Shown here: piece by piece, positions 2,235 through 56,800 of the stretch
Layout of the letters: each line of letters starts with the position of its first letter
Position numbering within the stretch: the stretch's first letter is position 1
Origin: Pyrenophora tritici-repentis
Taxonomy: Eukaryota; Ascomycota; Dothideomycetes; Pleosporales; Pleosporaceae
Assembly (NCBI RefSeq): GCF_003171515.1
Contig: NC_089394.1
Coordinates: 186,001 to 250,000 of the forward strand
Direction: 5' to 3'
Length of the DNA stretch: 64,000 nucleotides
Translations under genes and position numbers: made by a program
The notes under the pieces: generated by a model
Seen by the model: the letters and a program-made list of their open reading frames with translations, nothing else
Databases searched by the model: none
Told to the model about the DNA's origin: nothing

Positions 2235-4194
2235 ATGAGCATGGGTGCAGCATGGCGTAGTCAAATACTCCACATCCTGCTGCTAGTCTATGTGCCGTTG
2301 GCAGCGTGCCAATGCAAATGTGTGAGTTTATCATAAGGCAAAAAACAGTCATAATCCCGGATCAGATCACTCACCAATCATACAGACTCCCAGTCAAGCA
2401 TGTTGGCCGACCGCGGACGAATGGTCGCAATTCAATCAGACAATCAGTGGCAAACTGATCAAGACAGCCCCAGTCATGCTCCCTTGCTATGTGGGACCTA
2501 GCTACGACGCGGAGCAATGCGCACAGCTGAACGACACGTTGTTCTATGATCCCAAGTTCGAGGCTCAGCATCCTGTCGGTTATGACTACCCACTCAACGA
2601 GACATGCCCACCACCAACTGTAACCGACGCCCCGGCCAGCGAGTGTCAGCTTGGCAACTCACCCGTTTACGCCATCAACGCAACGATGGAAGCGGACATC
2701 CAGAATGGCATCCGCTTTGCCAAAGAAAAGAACCTTCGGGTAGTCATCAAATCCTCCGGCCATGACTTCGTCCAAAGGTAAGTCGTGTGTAGGTGTTGGC
2801 CATCACATGACTGAGCATGCATAGATCCAAAGGTTTTTATGGTCTATCCATATGGCTATATCACTTCAGAGGCGGCTTCACCTTCAACGAGCCTGTGTCC
2901 ATCTCGGGCGGGCGTCACGCACAGACCTGGAATGGTACTAGCCTCACAATCAACGGCGCCTACGCCTGGTCTGACATCTACCCCAATGCCTGGGAGAAAG
3001 GCGTTATCGTCGTTGGAGGCAACCAAAATGTTTGTACTTTTCTGGCAGCACATAAAAAGACCAACGAGACTAACGTATCCCCAGGGACCTTGCAGTACCG
3101 GAGGCTGGACGCAGGGAGGAGGTCACAGCCCCGTGACCCGCAACTTTGGCATGGGCGGCGACCAAGTTTTGTCTGCAAAGGTCATCCTTGCATCGGGCGA
3201 GCTCGTCGAGGCCAGCCCAGATATCAACCCGGATCTTTTCTTCGCCATCCGCGGCGGAGGGCCCGGCACATATGGTGTCGTAACACAGTTGACTGTCAAG
3301 ACGTATCCAAACCGGAACGTCAATCTGTTCTACATTGTGCTCGGCGCGCAAGGCACTGAAACAGTCAGTAAATTCCTAGATGCCATGACCGGCGTTTACT
3401 CTTCCTTCCCCAGCCTGTCCCAGAAAGGATTCGCCGGGTACGGATACTGGGTTGCCAATTCGGCCAACGGCCTACACGAACACAAATTCACCAATGTCTG
3501 GTACCAGGCATTCACAATCACCGGAAAAACAGCCGAACAATCACAAAAGCTCTTCCAGTCCTTTGAGGATAAAGTGCTATCTTACAACTCAACCCAACTC
3601 GGCATTCAGGTCAACATCACCAAATCAAGCTATGTTGACTACGGCAAGTACTTTGCCAACAAGACAGGGACCAATGCAGGCGTAGGCGGCATCTCGGCCC
3701 TCTCTTCCCGATTCCTCGACACCAATGCGCTGAGTGGTGACAAGAAGCGTCTCCGCGCCGCTATGGATGTCATGGGCGGCGAGCCGGGCAAACCCGTCTA
3801 TCACACGCTCGTGCACCACGGTCTCGAGACCACACACGGCCTGCAGATCAACGACTCCGCCGTTCAGCCCGGCTGGTACCGTTCCGTTGTGCTTGACATC
3901 TTCGAGCGTGACGTGGTCGACTTTAGCTACATCAACAACATTGAGCCGTTCACCTACATCCGCTCAAAGGTGGAGCCTGTCTACCGCATCCTCTCGCCCT
4001 CAGTGGGTACGTACATGAACGAGGCCGACTGGGGCAATGTGCAATGGAAAGAAGACTTCTACGGCGTGCACTTTGACCGCCTTAGTATGGTGAAGCAAAA
4101 GTACGATCCTGACGGTGTTTTCTACTGTATTACTTGTGTCGGAAGTGAGAACTGGGTGGTGAAGGAGGACGGGACTTTGTGCAAGAGCATCTGA
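2235..4194 (+). CDS. Secreted FAD-linked oxidoreductase, BBE-type (APS9-like)
   Basis: Four exons fit by phase: 2235-2321, 2386-2777, 2825-3029, 3085-4194, giving 597 aa. The first exon encodes a hydrophobic signal peptide, so the enzyme probably acts in the secretory path or outside the cell. The FAD-binding PCMH domain shows IKSSGHDF, where the His is the usual covalent flavin attachment site. It is followed by GPCSTGGWTQGGGHS, whose Cys could be a second attachment site. The C-terminus is a classic BBE domain (YMNEADWGN, then FYGVHFDRLSMVKQKYDPDG). Such enzymes oxidise alcohols or amines with oxygen; the apicidin cluster has one (APS9). It is the leftmost cluster gene and convergent with the next dehydrogenase gene. 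A TCACGTCA box lies 238 bp upstream. The precise substrate cannot be told. Confidence 0.85.
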
Positions 4195-4557
4195 ACAGTA
4201 CAGTGGTCCCATAACCAGTGATATATACACAATATTCGTAATGAGGAGAGTATGCTCCGTGGTGCCTTACTTTCTCATTGTCTCCTTCATTTTAAGGAGG
4301 AAGAACTATGCTAATATGTATTCTGATTCCACTTCGGCTTGACCAGACATGGGGCAAAGCATTGGTGTTCCTTGTTTGTAGCACGATGCTCAACAAAAGC
4401 GAAGCCACGTTTGAGCAGTTCACGGGTCAAAATCTTTCATATGAGAACGACATGGCTGCATGGCTAACACTAAAGATTGGAATTGGTCCCTAGCCGAGGC
4501 TTTGAAAGGATACTGTGATGTAGCTCGCCTTCGGGAGTGACGAATGCCTGAAAAACG
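4195..4557. other. Convergent intergenic region
   Basis: 3' ends of the FAD-oxidase gene (+) and the first dehydrogenase gene (-) face each other here. No gene or repeat is recognised; it should hold both polyadenylation regions. Confidence 0.4.
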
Positions 4558-5549
4558 TTAGCAATCCAATCGGCAAAAATCACGGGATGAAAGGCTTGCC
4601 TTGGTCAACCCGCCGTCGACCACCAGCTCAGTCGAGTTTACAAAAGAGCTGGCATCACTGGCCAGGAAGACTGCTGCGCCCGCAACCTCCAGCGGCGCAC
4701 CCCAACGCCCCTGTGGGAGGTGTACTTCCCTCCGTAGTCTTCGGGATGTTTGACCCTTTGCAGGCTCAAAAACGCTGGCAGATGAGCCTTTGCTATCGTC
4801 TTCGCCTTCCAGGAAGTCTTGTAGCATGGGGCTATCCAGTGGCCCCGGGCACAACGAGTTGAAGCGGAAGCCTTCTCTCGCATGGACGATGCCCAACTCT
4901 CTAGTCATGGCGATGACGGCGCCTTTGCTGGCGGTATACGCCAGCTGCGACGTTGCGCTGCCAATGAGCCCTGCCACGGAGCTCAGGTTGATTACGCTAC
5001 CGCTCTGCTTGCGGAATCGGCGCATGCTCAAAATCGCATGCTTGCAGCCCAGCCATGTACCCAGCACGTTGATATTGTGCGTCAACTCCCATGCACGAGC
5101 CGTCACCGTCACAGCATCTCCGTCAAGATCTGTAGGGAAGACACCGGCGTTGTTGACCATAATGTCTAGGCCGCCATGCTCATCAAGTTTGGCAAGTAAC
5201 TCCGCAACCCGCTCGTCAATGGAGACGTCGCAGACTTGATACAGGAAGCACGTAGCCGAACATGATGGTTTGGAATCCAAGAGCTTCTGAAGCCGGTCCA
5301 GGGCTTCTTTGGAAACGTCGGACAGGAGAATGGTACTCGCACCAGCTTCGGCAAAGCTAACTGCTGTTTGTGTGCCGATGGCCCTGCGCATAGCTTTCAG
5401 TTATAATTCAGCAGCGTTTCACTGATTGCCACCTTGTGGAGCATAGCTTCATGGCACTATCATCATACTGGATTGTAAAGGAAGGATACGCACCCTCCGG
5501 CACCAGTGATAGCCGCGTTTTTGCCCTTCAGAGAAAACATGGTGCTCAT
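4558..5549 (-). CDS. Short-chain dehydrogenase/reductase (classical SDR)
   Basis: Two exons on the minus strand, 5549-5494 and 5383-4558, give 293 aa; the intron is GTGCGT...GCAG. Without the first exon the protein would lack its start of the Rossmann fold. The join gives the cofactor motif TGAGGAIG (about residues 15-22). NNAG is at 96-99, the catalytic Ser in NLSSVAG near 153-154, and Tyr168/Lys172 in YTASK. The C-terminus has the family ending (ASSFVNSTELVVDGG). All catalytic residues are present, so it should be an active NAD(P)H-dependent oxidoreductase, probably cytosolic. A role on an oxo/hydroxy group of the cluster's fatty amino acid is inferred from position only. An upstream in-frame ATG pair (5549 and 5540) leaves the start slightly uncertain. 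Confidence 0.85.
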
Positions 5550-51050: not shown

Positions 51051-51837
51051 AACTACAAAAACAATATTTCCTTATCTAAAAGAGCCCGCTGCTACATCTC
51101 TTTCTATTCACCACACTGCTCTTTAGCACCCGCGCCAATGGAAGACTAGCTCTGAAATTGGAGTACGCAAAACACCACCCAAATTGTACAAGACCCATAG
51201 AAACTCCACAACGACCATTATACATAGAACGGCTTAGCCAAAGTCCTACATAGTCACCGACTGATACAGGACTCTAATGGAAATATAATAATAATAATAA
51301 TAGAGGAAAACTAAACCATTAACCCGCTCTAAGCACGAAACAAAATCAACGAGGCATTCCAAAAAGCTGGCATTGCAGGACCTATTATCCAACTAGCAGC
51401 TCTTAGTAAGAGAAACAACCTTATACTTACTACTACAAGCGGATACTCTAGAGAATTCCTTCTCCAGCAATCCAACATCTAGATAGACATCTTTAACATC
51501 AAACACGCTTAACCACTAGAATCTTGGACAAAAGTCATAGTCCACAACGTCCCTACAACTACGCTGGCAAATGGGTTGGGTATACCCAGTCTTGGGTTGG
51601 GGTTGGGTTGGGGTCGCACAGACCATGGGTTAGGGTTGGGTTGGGGTCGCACAGACCATGGGTTAGGGCTGGGCTGGGGTCGCACAGACCAAGTGGTAGG
51701 GTTGGGCTTGGGTTGGGTTGGGTTGGGTTGGGGTTGGGTTATATTTTTTGGGTACTTTAACGGAACAACACTTAATTAAGATAATGTGTACACGTTGATG
51801 ATATATTAGATACATAAAACGAGATATATTAACACAG

Positions 51838-52221
51838 CTAATTATCACGGTAGCGCTGAGGACGCTGGCGCTTTCGAGGTGGCAATTGACGCTCCTCCTG
51901 GACCTCTTCCTCCGACTCTTCTTCTGTAGTCTGGTTCTCCTCATCTATATCGAAGGTATGCTCTAACGAGGCTGGAAGCTCAAAAAGATCATTAACCTCG
52001 TCAATTGGCTCTCCATCCTCCCCTAATTGAGCAACTAGGTAGTCTAGACCCTGTTCTTCCTCTTGAGATATTGTATCCTTAAGAACCATTATCTGCTGTA
52101 TTGTCCGGGCAGATAGTCGGTGCCTCCGACTACCAATAACATCCTTAGCAACATTGAAAACTCTTTCAACCCCAACCTGAGCAATTGGTATTGCTAGTAT
52201 ATCCTTCGCCACTTGGGATAG
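51838..52221 (-). pseudogene. hAT transposase, C-terminal dimerisation domain only
   Basis: The frame reads AKDILAIPIAQVGVERVFN, RRHRLSARTIQQIMVLKD, the hallmark of the hAT C-terminal dimerisation region, then an acidic and Arg-rich tail ending in QRYRDN. No DDE catalytic core or BED zinc finger is seen upstream. The preceding exon of the unknown gene joins it only with a one-base frame conflict. It is either a remnant or the 3' exon of a diverged, shortened transposase gene. Confidence 0.75.
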
Positions 52222-52236
52222 TCTATTAGCAGATGT

Positions 52237-52258
52237 CTATGATAAACAGCTGTGATAA
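52237..52258 (-). repeat. Shared intron core, copy 1
   Basis: The minus-strand intron 52263-52223 reads GTAAG, then TTATCACAG CTG TTTATCATAG, then a CTAAT branch-like site and TAG. Its core matches two other introns in the same element. Confidence 0.7.
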
Positions 52259-52263
52259 CTTAC

Positions 52264-52759
52264 CAGACTTTTTCTGGGTAAACCGCTTCTCTGAAAGTAT
52301 ATCCCACTCTTTCTCTAGCAGCTTAGCCTGTCTAGCACTATTTGCTAATTTATACTTAGGCTGTTGCAAAAGCGATTTCTTCAGTTGGTACTTCGCGGAG
52401 CGGTCGGCTGTTCTAACGCTTTCAAGTACCTTCTCCTCTTTATCGAAAAGAGCTTTGCGTTCACGTTGAGCAATAGCACGGGCGCTACCACTCAGAGAGC
52501 CAGTATAGGGGACGCTCAAATTGATAGGTCGGCCTTTTCGTGAACCCCCACTACCTCTTTGATCTAAGATACCGTCAATCTCGTCAGCTTCACACGCAAA
52601 TCCCTGCTTATATTAGCATAAGCTGTGATAAATGGCTGTGATTATTACATCGGTAAGCTGCTCCCACTCATCTTGTTCGAACCCAGGCGGAGGTTCAAGT
52701 TTGATGGCTGGAACTAGGCCTTCAGGTACGTCGCCGACTTGCTCTTTCGCGACAGGCAT
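52264..52759 (-). CDS. Unknown cargo gene of the hAT element (basic, helical)
   Basis: Two exons, 52759-52649 and 52606-52264, are joined by a 42-bp intron of the shared type. The start ATG at 52759 gives MPVAKEQVGDVPEGL. The product has an acidic, Pro-rich start (EPPPGFEQDEWEQLTD), a GSRKGRP stretch, and a long Lys/Glu-rich probable helix (QRERKALFDKEEKVLESV, ARQAKLLEKEWDILSEK). A further intron of the same type follows at 52263-52223, after which the frame closes within ten codons or, with a one-base shift, would enter the transposase piece. I do not recognise a family. It could be a captured host gene or an odd N-terminal part of the transposase. Confidence 0.45.
52623..52644 (-). repeat. 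Shared intron core, copy 2
   Basis: The minus-strand intron 52648-52607 contains TAATCACAG CCA TTTATCACAG, followed by GCTAAT and AAG. Phase is kept between the flanking exons (TD/QG). Confidence 0.7.
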
Positions 52760-53269
52760 GGCGGGGACTGTGATAATGCGCTGTTGTAAATGGGGTGTTT
52801 TCAATGTAGTAAAGAGAGTTATTAGGTGTTGGGAGTTACTGGGCGTCAGGGGCTGGAGAAATGGGTAGACAGCATTATGCTCACCTAGAAATGGTCCGTG
52901 CGCTGCTGCCTGCGCTAGCGCGAAAACGCGGAAATTACCCAAAATGATCAACACATCGATGATTCCTTCATTTTTGGGCTGTACGCATGCGCGAGCTCGG
53001 CGTTTATCACAGCAGTTTAACACGTTTGTATGATATGCTCGCTACTGATTTTGCAACAGAAATGGTTGTATGCGATCGTGAAACAGCAAATTACGTCATG
53101 CAGTCCGTGCGCTGCTGCCTTTACTAGTGCGGAAATCGGGAAATTGCCGTCGCCCAAACTTTCCAGCTACCTAACTCTTTCAGCCTACTACTTTCTTAAT
53201 TGTCGACCACATTTATCACAGTAATTAATCACATACGTCGCCTACGTTCATCATCTACTCTACTACGCA

Positions 53270-53842
53270 ATGGCAAGGACAAAACCACGGCCTAAGGTCA
53301 CCGGTAAAGCCGGCCGGGGTGGTCCTGATGGCAAGACAGTTACTGGCGGCAAGCCGGCTCAGAAGGCCCTTGCTAGTAAGGCTAGACGTCAAGTAGCAGG
53401 AAAGTCTACGCGAAAGGCACCTGTAGCTGTTAAGAAGAAGCGCAAGTTTAAGGCAGGCAGTAGGTTATCACAGTCGTTTATCACAGCTATTTTCTAATTT
53501 AGCTTAGCTGTCGCATTACGGGAAATCAAGAGATACCAGAGAGGTTTTGAACTACTCTTGCGAAAACTCCCCTTTTCCCGCGTAGTGCGCGAATTTGCAC
53601 AGGTGCACAAGGCCGATATCCGCTTTCAACGATCTGCAATCGAAGCTCTTCAGGAAGCTACAGAAGCTTTCTTAGTTGGTTATTTTGAGGGTATAGTCTA
53701 TCTACCCTATACTATTTTTCATTTAATAACTTTTATAGACTGCAACATCAATGCTATTCACGCAAAGAGGGTTACTATTCAAGAGAAGGATTCTCAATTG
53801 GCTAGGCGCTACTTTGCGCGCGAGTTACTAGCTTTTCTCTAG
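53270..53842 (+). CDS. Histone H3 variant carried by a hAT element
   Basis: Three exons, 53270-53459, 53508-53690 and 53739-53842, give 158 aa, against 135-136 for canonical H3. The tail starts MARTK like H3, but residues up to about 62 are rewritten (KPRPKVTGK, then KKKRKFKAG), with about 18 extra residues and no ARKS at Lys9. From [11 protein letters not shown] the histone fold follows: [56 protein letters not shown]. It then has an unusual end, [16 protein letters not shown], in place of LARRIRGERA. No internal stop, phases fit, and conserved fold residues are kept, so it may be expressed. If made, it would be nuclear and might enter nucleosomes. The first intron belongs to the shared intron family; the second (GTATAG...ATAG) does not. 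Confidence 0.85.
53465..53486 (+). repeat. Shared intron core, copy 3 (histone H3 intron 1)
   Basis: Intron 53460-53507 reads GTAGG, then TTATCACAG TCG TTTATCACAG, then TTCTAATTTAGCTTAG. Single TTTATCACAG words also occur at 53003-53012 and 53212-53221 between the cargo genes. Confidence 0.75.
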
Positions 53843-56800
53843 ATTATAAGATATATCTAGATACACGTGCTTAAATGCTAGCTGGCGAAGCCTCTGTATA
53901 TTATAAATGAAACTAGTTAATGCTACACTGTGTTAATCTACTGTGATACTATATAAACTTTTCTTTTATTGAAATCTATATTATACATCTTGCAATTTTT
54001 TTACTATAACCCAACCCTAACCCATGGTCCGTGCGACCCCAACCCAACCCCAACCCAACCCCAACCCAACCCTAAGCTTGGCGCTGACAAATGGGTTGGG
54101 GTTGGGTTGGGGTCGCAAAATTTCTAACCCAACCCCAACCACACCCCGACCCATTTGCCAGCGTACCTACAACCTTTGAAGGAGCAGACACGCTAGAAAT
54201 CCTTCAAACTGAAATCCCTATATACAACAAAGGACTACAAATAGTTAGTAACTCCTACTAGCTTACAAAAGACTAGAAGAACAAGCAAAACAGCTCTATT
54301 GTTATTGCTTTTAAAACAAAAGCTGAAGCAAAGAAACTAGGATCGAGGATTATCATCCTTGGAGAGAGCCTCCGTACTAAAAAGTATAGAAGTATTCCAG
54401 CTACTACCTAATGCGACAACTGCCAAGGCTTTGGCTATACAAAGCTTAAATGCCGGAACTAAACAGCATGCTAGCTATGTGCGGGGACCCACCCTACATC
54501 GCAGCATAAATGCTCCACCTGCACGACAAGTGGGAAGCCTTGTATCCATACACTTCCAAAATGCTCAAACTGCAAAGAACCTCACTTTGCTAATAGCAGA
54601 GACTGTGAAGTCCTCGCAGCTATAATAAACAAGGAGAACCAATATACAACAGAATGTTAGACAGCATTAAGATTCTCTAAGCGAATCTGAATAAGAGTAT
54701 CTAGGCTACAGAGTCTACTCTTTAACTAGCTGTCGAACTAAGGGTTGATATAATTGCAGTCCAAGAGCCTTAGCTCACACTAACAAGAAACAACGACTAC
54801 GCTGATACTAGGTCCACTAGCCACGCAGCATACCTCCAAATTCTCCCACAATCCGAACCAAAACTCCGCCCTAGAGTGCTATTCTATATCTCTAGAACGC
54901 TATTAGCAGAAACCTACCTACTACAAGGTTTCACGTCAGATCTAGACGCTATAGCACTAGTAGTACAGAAAGGAAACTATAAGTTTAATATCTTTAACCT
55001 ATACAACGAGAGAGGTATAGGAGATATAAAGACTATCCTAAGAGTTCTTCTAAACACAAACACAAGACTACTAGAGTTATCTATTCTACTCCTAGACGCA
55101 AATGAGCACCACCCGTAGTGGGACCCACTATGCACATCGACGAGCCCAGGAGCACCCCGATTTGTAGAATGGATAGAAAGCCAAAACCTTAGCCTTCTAA
55201 ACACACCAGGAACGGGCACTTTCTTTAGGCCGCACCTATCAAGAGAATCAGTTTTAGACCTATCCCTAGTTACCCCAGACCTAGCTGACAAAGCTATTGA
55301 CTGGCAAGTCACTACAGAGACTGGATCTAACCACTACGGCCTACTCTTCTCAATTCGATCAGACACCGACTAAGTAGACAATCTAATAAACCAACGCAAG
55401 TTTAACACAAAAAAGGCGGATTAGCCACTATTTCAAAAAACCCTAAACGAGGCTATTCAAAACAACATCACGCTACAGCACATAAGCGAGATAAACGACC
55501 CTAGAAAACAAGATTGCAAGAATCTAATTCTAGAAGAGGACCAGGAGCTTCAAAGCATACTAGAGGAGATAGGGGAAGCAATTACGTAAGTTATCTAACT
55601 AGCAGCTGACAAAGCAATCCTAAAAGTCAAACTAGGTCCTAAACTAAAACCCTGGTGGAACTAGGAGCTTACTAAGCTAAGAAGAGAGCTTACTTACTGC
55701 TAAAGAGTCTACACACAACAATTGCAACAGTTGTCCATCCAAGAGGCATATCTATTCAAGAAAGACTTCTTAATAGCGCGGAACACCTACGCAAGAGCAA
55801 TCAAGGATGCCAAGAAGAGACATTGGAATAGCTTTCTAGAACAAGAAACCCCACAGTCTATCTACAAAGCTATGGCATACACAAAGGATCAAAAGGTCGA
55901 AAAGATCCCACCTATCCATGGAGAGATACTAGAGAAAACATTCAAAGGAAAGTGCAAGGCCTTTAGAAAAGCACTTTTCCCTCCTCCTCCAACAGCAGAA
56001 CTACCAAGCTTTCTAAACTATCAAGAGAGCATTTGGGACTGGCCGCAACTATCAATTTCTGAACTAGAACAAGCCTGTTCTAGTAAAGTTAAAAGTAGTA
56101 CACCAGGGCCTAACGCCATTACTCAAGATATTATAACTGCTACGTTTAAGTTCAACCCAGAGATCCTCTTCATCGCCTACTCAATCTTGTTCAATTACGG
56201 ATACCACCCTCGGTGCTGGAAAGCAGCTACAGGAGCAATTCTCAAAAAACCATCCAAACTAGACTACTCTCTCCCGAAAGCTTATAGAGTAATTACTCTC
56301 TTAAACAGCCTAGGGAAGGTACTAGAGAGAATTATCGCCAAAAGACTAGCTAGTCTAGCAGAAACCACAAACCTCCTACACTCCTCACAAATTGGAGGTA
56401 GAAACAAGAAATCTGCAATAGACGCCGCTCTCCTCCTAGTAGACCAGATTCAACACAAAAAACAGCAAGGCCAAATTACTTCCACAGTGTTTGTGGACGT
56501 CAAAGGAGCTTTTAACCACGTCATACACAACCAATTTCTAGACCAACTTAAGAAACTTGGACTCCCAATTAGCTTAATTTGCTAGGCGAAATCCTTTCTC
56601 TCTAACAGGACCCTAAGACTAGCATTCGATAATAAGATTGAAGAATTTAGCAAGATTAGAGCAGGCATCCCACAAGGCAGCCCAGTATCACTAATCTTCT
56701 TCCTTATCTATATCCGAGACCTATTCCTAGCCTTACAAAGCTTTCAACTATCGTATATCAACGACCTATCTCTTACTACCTCATCAACCTCTCTAAAGAA

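Follow-up and report, generated by a model that had tools for sequence, protein, structure and literature searches.

The window, a 64,000-nucleotide stretch of the Pyrenophora tritici-repentis genome, holds at 51560-54165 a short, internally deleted copy of a hAT element (2606 bp) that carries a histone H3-like gene, H3L. The copy is bounded by a perfect 17-bp terminal inverted repeat (51560-51576 on the plus strand and 54149-54165 on the minus strand), both ends of which start with TACGCTGGCAAATGGGT, and is flanked by the 8-mer CCTACAAC on the left (51552-51559) and on the right (54166-54173), an 8-bp target-site duplication. The perfect terminal repeats and 8-bp duplications around a 2606-bp element were thus correctly described in the initial annotation, and the copy displays two features of the hAT superfamily, the 8-bp duplication and short terminal inverted repeats. 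When the flanks were joined with one CCTACAAC, an uninterrupted, insert-free match was obtained at no fewer than 34 of the 42 listed places, at least 19 at 94-96% identity and at least 15 at 70-71%; these counts of paralogous empty sites are lower bounds, with 40 of the 60 candidates scored. Since the flanks match many insert-free places, the element was inserted into a multi-copy repeat.

Genes and noncoding parts of the element

H3L is predicted to occupy 53270-53842 on the plus strand, with three exons and two 48-bp GT-AG introns, and to encode 158 aa in 477 nt. Exon 1 (53270-53459) encodes a rewritten N-terminal tail, exon 2 (53508-53690) the histone fold and exon 3 (53739-53842) a derived C-terminus; intron 1 (53460-53507) holds a TTATCACAG dyad at 53465-53486, and intron 2 spans 53691-53738. 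With the exon structure read from the sequence, the frame has no internal stop, and PF00125 exceeded its cut-off both in the database copy P0002 and in a window frame that crosses intron 2 to connect exon 2 with exon 3, which bears out the earlier description of an intact-looking, three-exon H3 variant of 158 aa. The protein is 99% identical to P0001 and P0002, both annotated P. tritici-repentis proteins, and lacks the ARTKQTARKS tail and the conserved C-terminal end of canonical H3. Its predicted model is weak (pLDDT 56.5). A derivation of the introns from the host H3 gene, L027, was considered and rejected: the host intron lies after about residue 19, where H3L has none, and the two introns of H3L sit at other positions.

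H3L and the gene of the central ORF are divergently oriented, and the intergenic region between them (52760-53269) contains modules repeated at a spacing of 209 bp (52894-52939 and 53103-53148; 53003-53023 and 53212-53232). On the minus strand, 51838-52759 encodes an in-frame chimera of 275 aa, composed of the N-terminal part of the central ORF and the C-terminus of the transposase, with exons at 52759-52649, 52606-52264 and 52211-51838. Dyads of the TTATCACAG type lie in its intron 1 (52623-52644, minus strand) and, with a 13-bp period, in its intron 2 (52237-52258, minus strand). The deletion joint, GACTAT, is located at 52218-52223 on the minus strand, where the window copy, being a short form, lacks ~3.27 kb present in the long copies. 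Three proteins are encoded by the long form: a hAT transposase, a central protein whose C-terminus is strongly acidic, and H3L. On the spliced 848-aa transposase of long copy L010, PF05699 (hAT dimerisation, Dimer_Tnp_hAT) gave an E value of 2.4e-20, and the RNase H-type core PF14372 an E value of 0.042 with 14.5 bits, below its cut-off of 27; the short form retains only the C-terminal part of this protein. The central protein has a GRP motif like that of an AT-hook, and a structure search with its weak model (pLDDT 66.2) returned no convincing solved relative.

In its two forms, its three genes, its gactat joint and its H3L protein, the element agrees with the available text of Manning et al. 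2013 (PMC3538342), which describes a P. tritici-repentis hAT element with H3L. The element is therefore the published one, already known, and the window almost certainly contains a short, non-autonomous copy of it. The transduplication in Pyrenophora mentioned in the initial annotation was a sound lead, and it concerns this very element, not merely a related one. As here, the long form in that text comprises the transposase, the central ORF and H3L, the short form has the gactat joint and the in-frame chimera, and the H3L genes are near-identical. The lengths given there are ~5.6 and 2.3 kb, compared with ~5.87 and 2.6 kb in our analysis, and the reference isolate had 10 long and 16 short copies with H3L, compared with 11 and 22. 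The same text reports ESTs for H3L, suggests that the H3L genes may have undergone drift, and raises the question of selection on the captured H3 and of the reason for it.

Copies of the element in this genome

The genome contains no fewer than 33 H3L genes, of which 22 belong to short and 11 to long copies, and the whole 2606 bp is matched at 19 places, the window copy counted. With 33 copies of the gene, the H3-like frame is not due to chance, and confinement of the H3 piece to a single copy is ruled out; random decay of the other copies is likewise ruled out by the 30 genes that are intact. A matching 8-bp duplication was found in 17 of 26 rows, corresponding to 16 of 25 distinct copies (L005 also lies within L024). 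Among the nine rows without one, L020 is truncated, L015 is mis-ended and four belong to paired copies (L023, L024 and L026 twice), and in L009, L011 and L017 both ends are present with unlike 8-mers.

Ten long copies are each 1-6 sites off the majority base. The only old copy, L016, is decayed: of its 265 changes, 221 are C>T or G>A (180 at CpA), and in its H3L the start is missing and stops have appeared. Among the 30 intact genes only three sites vary, one silent and two missense. A measurement of selection among the copies of this genome was discarded as powerless, and with three variable sites selection is not demonstrable from them. It could be argued that the captured H3 drifted as a passenger and owes its intactness solely to a recent spread of the element. 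The closeness of the ten long copies means that intactness within this genome needs no selection, and the decayed H3L of L016 is also in keeping with such a history; the evidence against it comes from other fungi.

H3L as a protein family

H3L relatives were found among annotated open proteins, where decayed relatives could not appear, in P. teres, P. seminiperda, Alternaria, Paraphoma and Massariosphaeria, and in metagenomes. In the tree, nine H3L rows are placed apart from 11 canonical H3 rows and two CENP-A rows, one of them partial, with support 100/97; inside the H3L group the branching order is weakly supported, and several of the rows are long. Judged by sequence, H3L is a separate H3 family, split from canonical H3 and CENP-A. 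CENP-A (CenH3) is likewise a diverged H3 with an altered tail, but the tree divides H3L from it as from canonical H3, and L028 is read as a separate CENP-A gene in the same genome.

The derived residues N110 and Y130 occur in 10 of 10 H3L rows, as does Y or F at 131, and S124 occurs in nine of ten; all four states are absent from the canonical H3 rows (12 of 12). Across nine H3L rows, 38 of the 88 globular columns are invariant, and the site rates are unequal (lnL -938.7 with equal rates versus -900.9 with gamma). In the metagenome relatives P0123 and P0124, a 16-residue (48-nt) read-through was seen by eye at the site of H3L intron 2; the position and length of this intron appear to be common to all three. 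Comparison of H3L with the host H3 over 88 codons by NG86 gave a dN of 0.32 with dS beyond estimation, and the differences fell at 28, 19 and 62 of 88 first, second and third codon positions; these counts mix the host and H3L lineages, and we do not use them as proof of selection.

H3L and a homologue of the central ORF occur together, according to the protein records, in three Pyrenophora species. In P. teres they are P0094 (CFE70_001393) and P0129 (CFE70_001394), whose longest contigs are equally long, and in P. seminiperda P0122 and P0132, each listed with a 675,226-bp contig. The recurrence of this pair, the derived residues and invariant columns common across genera, and the strong rate variation among sites all argue against the drifting passenger, which we consider unlikely. 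Instead, the protein family suggests that H3L is probably an old H3 variant under amino-acid constraint. The selection "at least for a time" proposed in the initial annotation is thus backed by the wider family, although not by the copies of this genome.

Another possibility would be that H3L is a normal Pleosporales variant that was taken up by Pyrenophora elements and is a host gene outside Pyrenophora. The central-ORF homologues would allow this, as none of the 18 listed came from Alternaria, Paraphoma or Massariosphaeria, all of which have H3L; among the H3L matches listed (the best 120 of 7917; 9/9), in turn, none came from Bipolaris, Exserohilum or Parastagonospora, which have the central-ORF homologue. 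The pair may therefore not be obligatory. However, all 33 H3L genes found by the PF00125 search of this genome lie inside element copies, only the host H3 gene L027 carried canonical-H3 words among the seven further PF00125 loci scanned, and the central ORF is linked to H3L in P. teres and P. seminiperda, so that a host gene as the source seems quite unlikely.

Besides Dhillon et al. 2019 (PMC6710886) on Mycosphaerellaceae, the papers listed by a search of mainly open-access literature included none on H3L outside P. tritici-repentis. The element in that paper is also a hAT with a captured H3 and 8-bp duplications. According to its available text, the Mycosphaerellaceae copies are RIP-decayed and their H3 was captured without introns, whereas in our genome the gene has two introns and is intact in 30 of 33 cases; its authors reported no DNA similarity between the two elements.

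Possible role of H3L in the chromatin of the element

The TTATCACA dyad is present in six of the seven introns of the long element. Exact TTATCACA (n=15) was counted nine times in 332 intronic bases and four times in other noncoding sequence, versus twice in 4092 coding bases. As a general feature of host introns the dyad found no support: with the exact pattern TTATCACAGN{3,5}TTATCA, 74 of the 77 genome matches lie inside the 33 H3L-bearing copies. Of the remaining matches, the one at C2:4952395 belongs to a long copy that is truncated, and those at C2:251201 and C8:2032541 are outside the family.

K9 and S10 of the H3 tail are the seat of heterochromatin methylation. K9 is kept in one of eight H3L rows and S10 in none of the eight; K14, K18 and K37 are kept in all eight, and K23 and K27 in seven. 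The member with K9 is P0069, which rules out an absence of K9 from all H3L, so that K9 loss does not characterise the family throughout.

H3L could be a maintained, element-borne H3 variant that perhaps resists H3K9 silencing, a reading to which we accord somewhat less than an even chance. As its likeliest role, proposed more tentatively, H3L may form pairs with H4, either inside nucleosomes or as free dimers, and so help the element to stay open. The tail without K9/S10 and the changes in residues of the H3-H3' interface would underlie this openness, and H3L may be brought to the noncoding TTATCACA dyads with the aid of the central protein. Taken furthest, the transposon would possess its own chromatin kit, in which a K9-unmethylatable H3 (in the Pyrenophora members) and the acidic central protein would act on the TTATCACA dyads of introns and promoters, producing nucleosomes that heterochromatin could not mark; this complete scheme is improbable. 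Very improbable is a function of H3L in or near the transpososome (DNA binding, target choice) instead of in silencing: H3L is kept in both long and short forms, the latter with the transposase core deleted, but we know of no hAT system that requires a histone.

The family provides a first, protein-level answer to the 2013 question of selection on the captured H3, and the loss of K9 together with the dyads offers a concrete hypothesis for why it would be selected. If true, a silencing-resistant histone supplied by a transposon would be a new route by which selfish DNA escapes chromatin defence. VANDAL/VANC of Arabidopsis (PMC10398659) may serve as an analogy, since there an element-borne protein acts on the element's own repeated noncoding parts; in the available text that system involves no histone, and anti-silencing, reported there, is only a candidate function here.

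K9 is not the sole weakly kept lysine of the tail. K4 is retained in three of six H3L rows, and K36 in one of eight, in a gapped part of the alignment where P. tritici-repentis is represented by the database variant P0002, which has M; the window copy has K at this position.

An intact H3-like gene on a known element

The hAT-type element at window positions 51560-54165 bears a 17-bp perfect terminal inverted repeat at its ends, and CCTACAAC borders it on left and right alike, in agreement with the initial annotation of a mobile element with perfect terminal repeats and flanking duplications. Its H3-like gene, H3L, was likewise annotated as an intact-looking three-exon frame of 158 aa, and its predicted exons, taken from the sequence with GT-AG limits, do give 158 codons with zero internal stops. 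On the opposite strand, the exons predicted from the sequence encode a 275-aa in-frame chimera of the central ORF, another gene of the element, and the transposase C-terminus.

The case of transduplication in Pyrenophora tritici-repentis to which the initial annotation pointed proved to be this very element, which is already known. The accessible text of Manning et al. 2013 (PMC3538342) describes forms of ~5.6 kb and ~2.3 kb in 10 and 16 copies, the gactat joint of the short form, a chimera with the hAT dimerisation domain, a central ORF of unknown function and 26 very similar H3L genes; it records ESTs for H3L, and raises drift of the H3L genes as a possibility. What we add, from sequence comparison, is the case for H3L as a maintained variant that recurs with the central gene.

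The window insertion is hosted by a multi-copy repeat (flanks 51310-51559 and 54174-54423). The flanks fused at one copy of the duplication, without the insert, matched at least 34 of 42 listed places, at least 19 of them at 94-96% identity and at least 15 at 70-71%. Both element ends (51560-51740 and 54010-54165) hold G-rich or C-rich, TTGGG-type arrays that include CATGGGTTAGGG and GTCGCACAGACC units and are perhaps candidate subterminal binding sites or quadruplex formers.

Copies in the genome

The whole-element search scored 40 of 57 candidates, and its copy counts are therefore lower bounds: at least 19 full-length short copies (query 1-2606, the window's own counted), at least three shorter copies that also span the joint, and at least 11 long copies, in which query parts 1-664 (matched partially in L015 and L016) and 659-2606 lie ~3.27 kb apart. 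A Pfam search with 47/47 candidates scored recovered the same 33 H3L places, and hence the gene is not confined to the window copy. General decay of the other copies was not borne out, as H3L is intact in 30 of the 33 genes; the same 1-base deletion is found in two, one of which lies in the interrupted short copy, and the gene of the long copy L016 is decayed. Five of the 11 long copies have an open transposase frame, and eight have a full-length, stop-free central frame. Substitutions set L016 apart from the other long copies at 265 of the 5580 sites compared. C>T and G>A account for 221 of them, 180 of which fall at CpA, the pattern expected from repeat-induced point mutation (RIP). The remaining ten long copies have just 1-6 differing sites each.

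A separate H3 case in Mycosphaerellaceae (Dhillon et al. 2019, PMC6710886) is RIP-inactivated and intron-less, whereas the Pyrenophora gene has three exons and is mostly intact. That event is stated to be absent from species outside the authors' clade; the accessible text makes no mention of teres, seminiperda, Paraphoma or Massariosphaeria, and names Alternaria once, in a list of genomes supplying protein sets.

At L060 (C6:2874000-2883999), one of the three shorter joint-crossing copies, a nested insertion of ~6 kb of other DNA interrupts H3L. L064 (C2:4949500-4955500) holds a truncated long copy of 2128 bp (long-element positions 3162-5289), with H3L absent from the 6 kb around it. The flanking 8-mers of two oppositely oriented short copies at L026 (C4:2928300-2937200) would fit an inversion of the interval between them by inter-copy recombination. 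Reverse-complementing the 8-mers around the L023 pair (C18:6000-12900, on a small contig) gives those around the L024 pair (C7:1128200-1135000); the C18 pair may be a segmental or an assembly duplicate of the C7 pair, and independent insertions may thus number two fewer.

A distinct H3-like family

Of 7992 candidates scored with the H3L protein as query, 7917 matched; the 120 listed include many canonical H3 proteins. Nine proteins matched in a further search, whose query was the C-terminal portion of the Paraphoma protein P0058. Derived C-terminal motifs occur in 13 of the 143 proteins gathered by these and the central-protein searches, including three P. tritici-repentis proteins and the window's own fragment. 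The relatives come from P. teres (P0054, P0094), P. seminiperda (P0122), Paraphoma (P0058), Alternaria alternata (P0065), Massariosphaeria (P0066) and metagenomes (P0069, P0123, P0124). In a 22-row tree, which excludes P0124 (gaps) and one yeast H3 (odd duplication), nine H3L rows separate at 100/97 from the 11 rows of canonical H3 and the two of CENP-A, on an unrooted branch with mostly unresolved inner forks and four long rows; the Massariosphaeria row joins closest to canonical H3. N110 and Y130 are present in 10/10 H3L rows vs 0/12 canonical rows, residue 131 is Y or F in 10/10, and S124, C107 and Y103 are found in 9/10, 8/10 and 8/9, respectively. These derived residues would lie at the H3-H3' four-helix bundle. 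Across the nine H3L rows, drawn solely from annotated open proteins and so subject to selection bias, the globular part shows no variation at 38 of its 88 columns, and allowing gamma rates raises the likelihood by 37.8 units.

Among the eight rows that include the tail, K14, K18 and K37 are kept in 8/8 and K23 and K27 in 7/8, K9 in one of eight (P0069) and S10 in none; gene starts are uncertain for P. seminiperda and for the partial Paraphoma H3L. K4 is kept in 3/6 rows, S28 in 2/8 and K36 in 1/8, the last within a gapped part of the alignment where P. tritici-repentis is represented by P0002, with M, and the window copy has K. This weak retention of K36, K4 and S28 counts against an account of the tail by K9 only. 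From the loss of K9 in most members, the scant RIP-like change in 10/11 long copies and the analogy to the VANC anti-silencing proteins of Arabidopsis VANDAL elements, as set out in the accessible text of PMC10398659, we infer that H3L may serve escape from silencing.

The central protein and noncoding motifs

The central protein (355 aa) had 18 matches, in P. tritici-repentis (several being the chimera), P. teres, P. seminiperda, Bipolaris sorokiniana, Exserohilum turcica, Parastagonospora nodorum and one metagenome. Among the matches listed, a central homologue was seen for 3/6 named H3L-bearing species, and H3L for 3/6 species with a central homologue. According to the protein records, H3L and the central homologue of P. 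teres are CFE70_001393 and CFE70_001394, with the longest contig equal in size, and both P. seminiperda genes are assigned to a 675,226-bp contig. The eight-row alignment conserves an acidic stretch, DSDECEEEVDDDS, an EFEGF terminus (5/8 rows) and a basic GRP motif reminiscent of an AT-hook. The protein had no Pfam match above its cut-off, and its predicted structure, helical with a pLDDT of 66.2, found no convincing relative among solved structures.

All seven occurrences of TTATCACAG in the 64-kb window lie within the element (0.54 expected), as do all 11 in the 6.5-kb locus L012 within its long copy (0.08 expected). Inspection by eye revealed paired TTATCACA-like units, 13 bp apart and several with one mismatch, in six of the seven introns of the element's three genes, H3L intron 2 being the sole one without them. 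The pairs could reflect a shared recent origin of the introns, but the six sequences differ outside the paired units, which fits better with candidate binding sites that were kept. In the divergent intergenic region between H3L and the central ORF, two modules, one of them TTTATCACAG, are repeated at 209-bp spacing, with an alignment score of 123.5 vs a maximum of 86.5 in 200 single-base shuffles.
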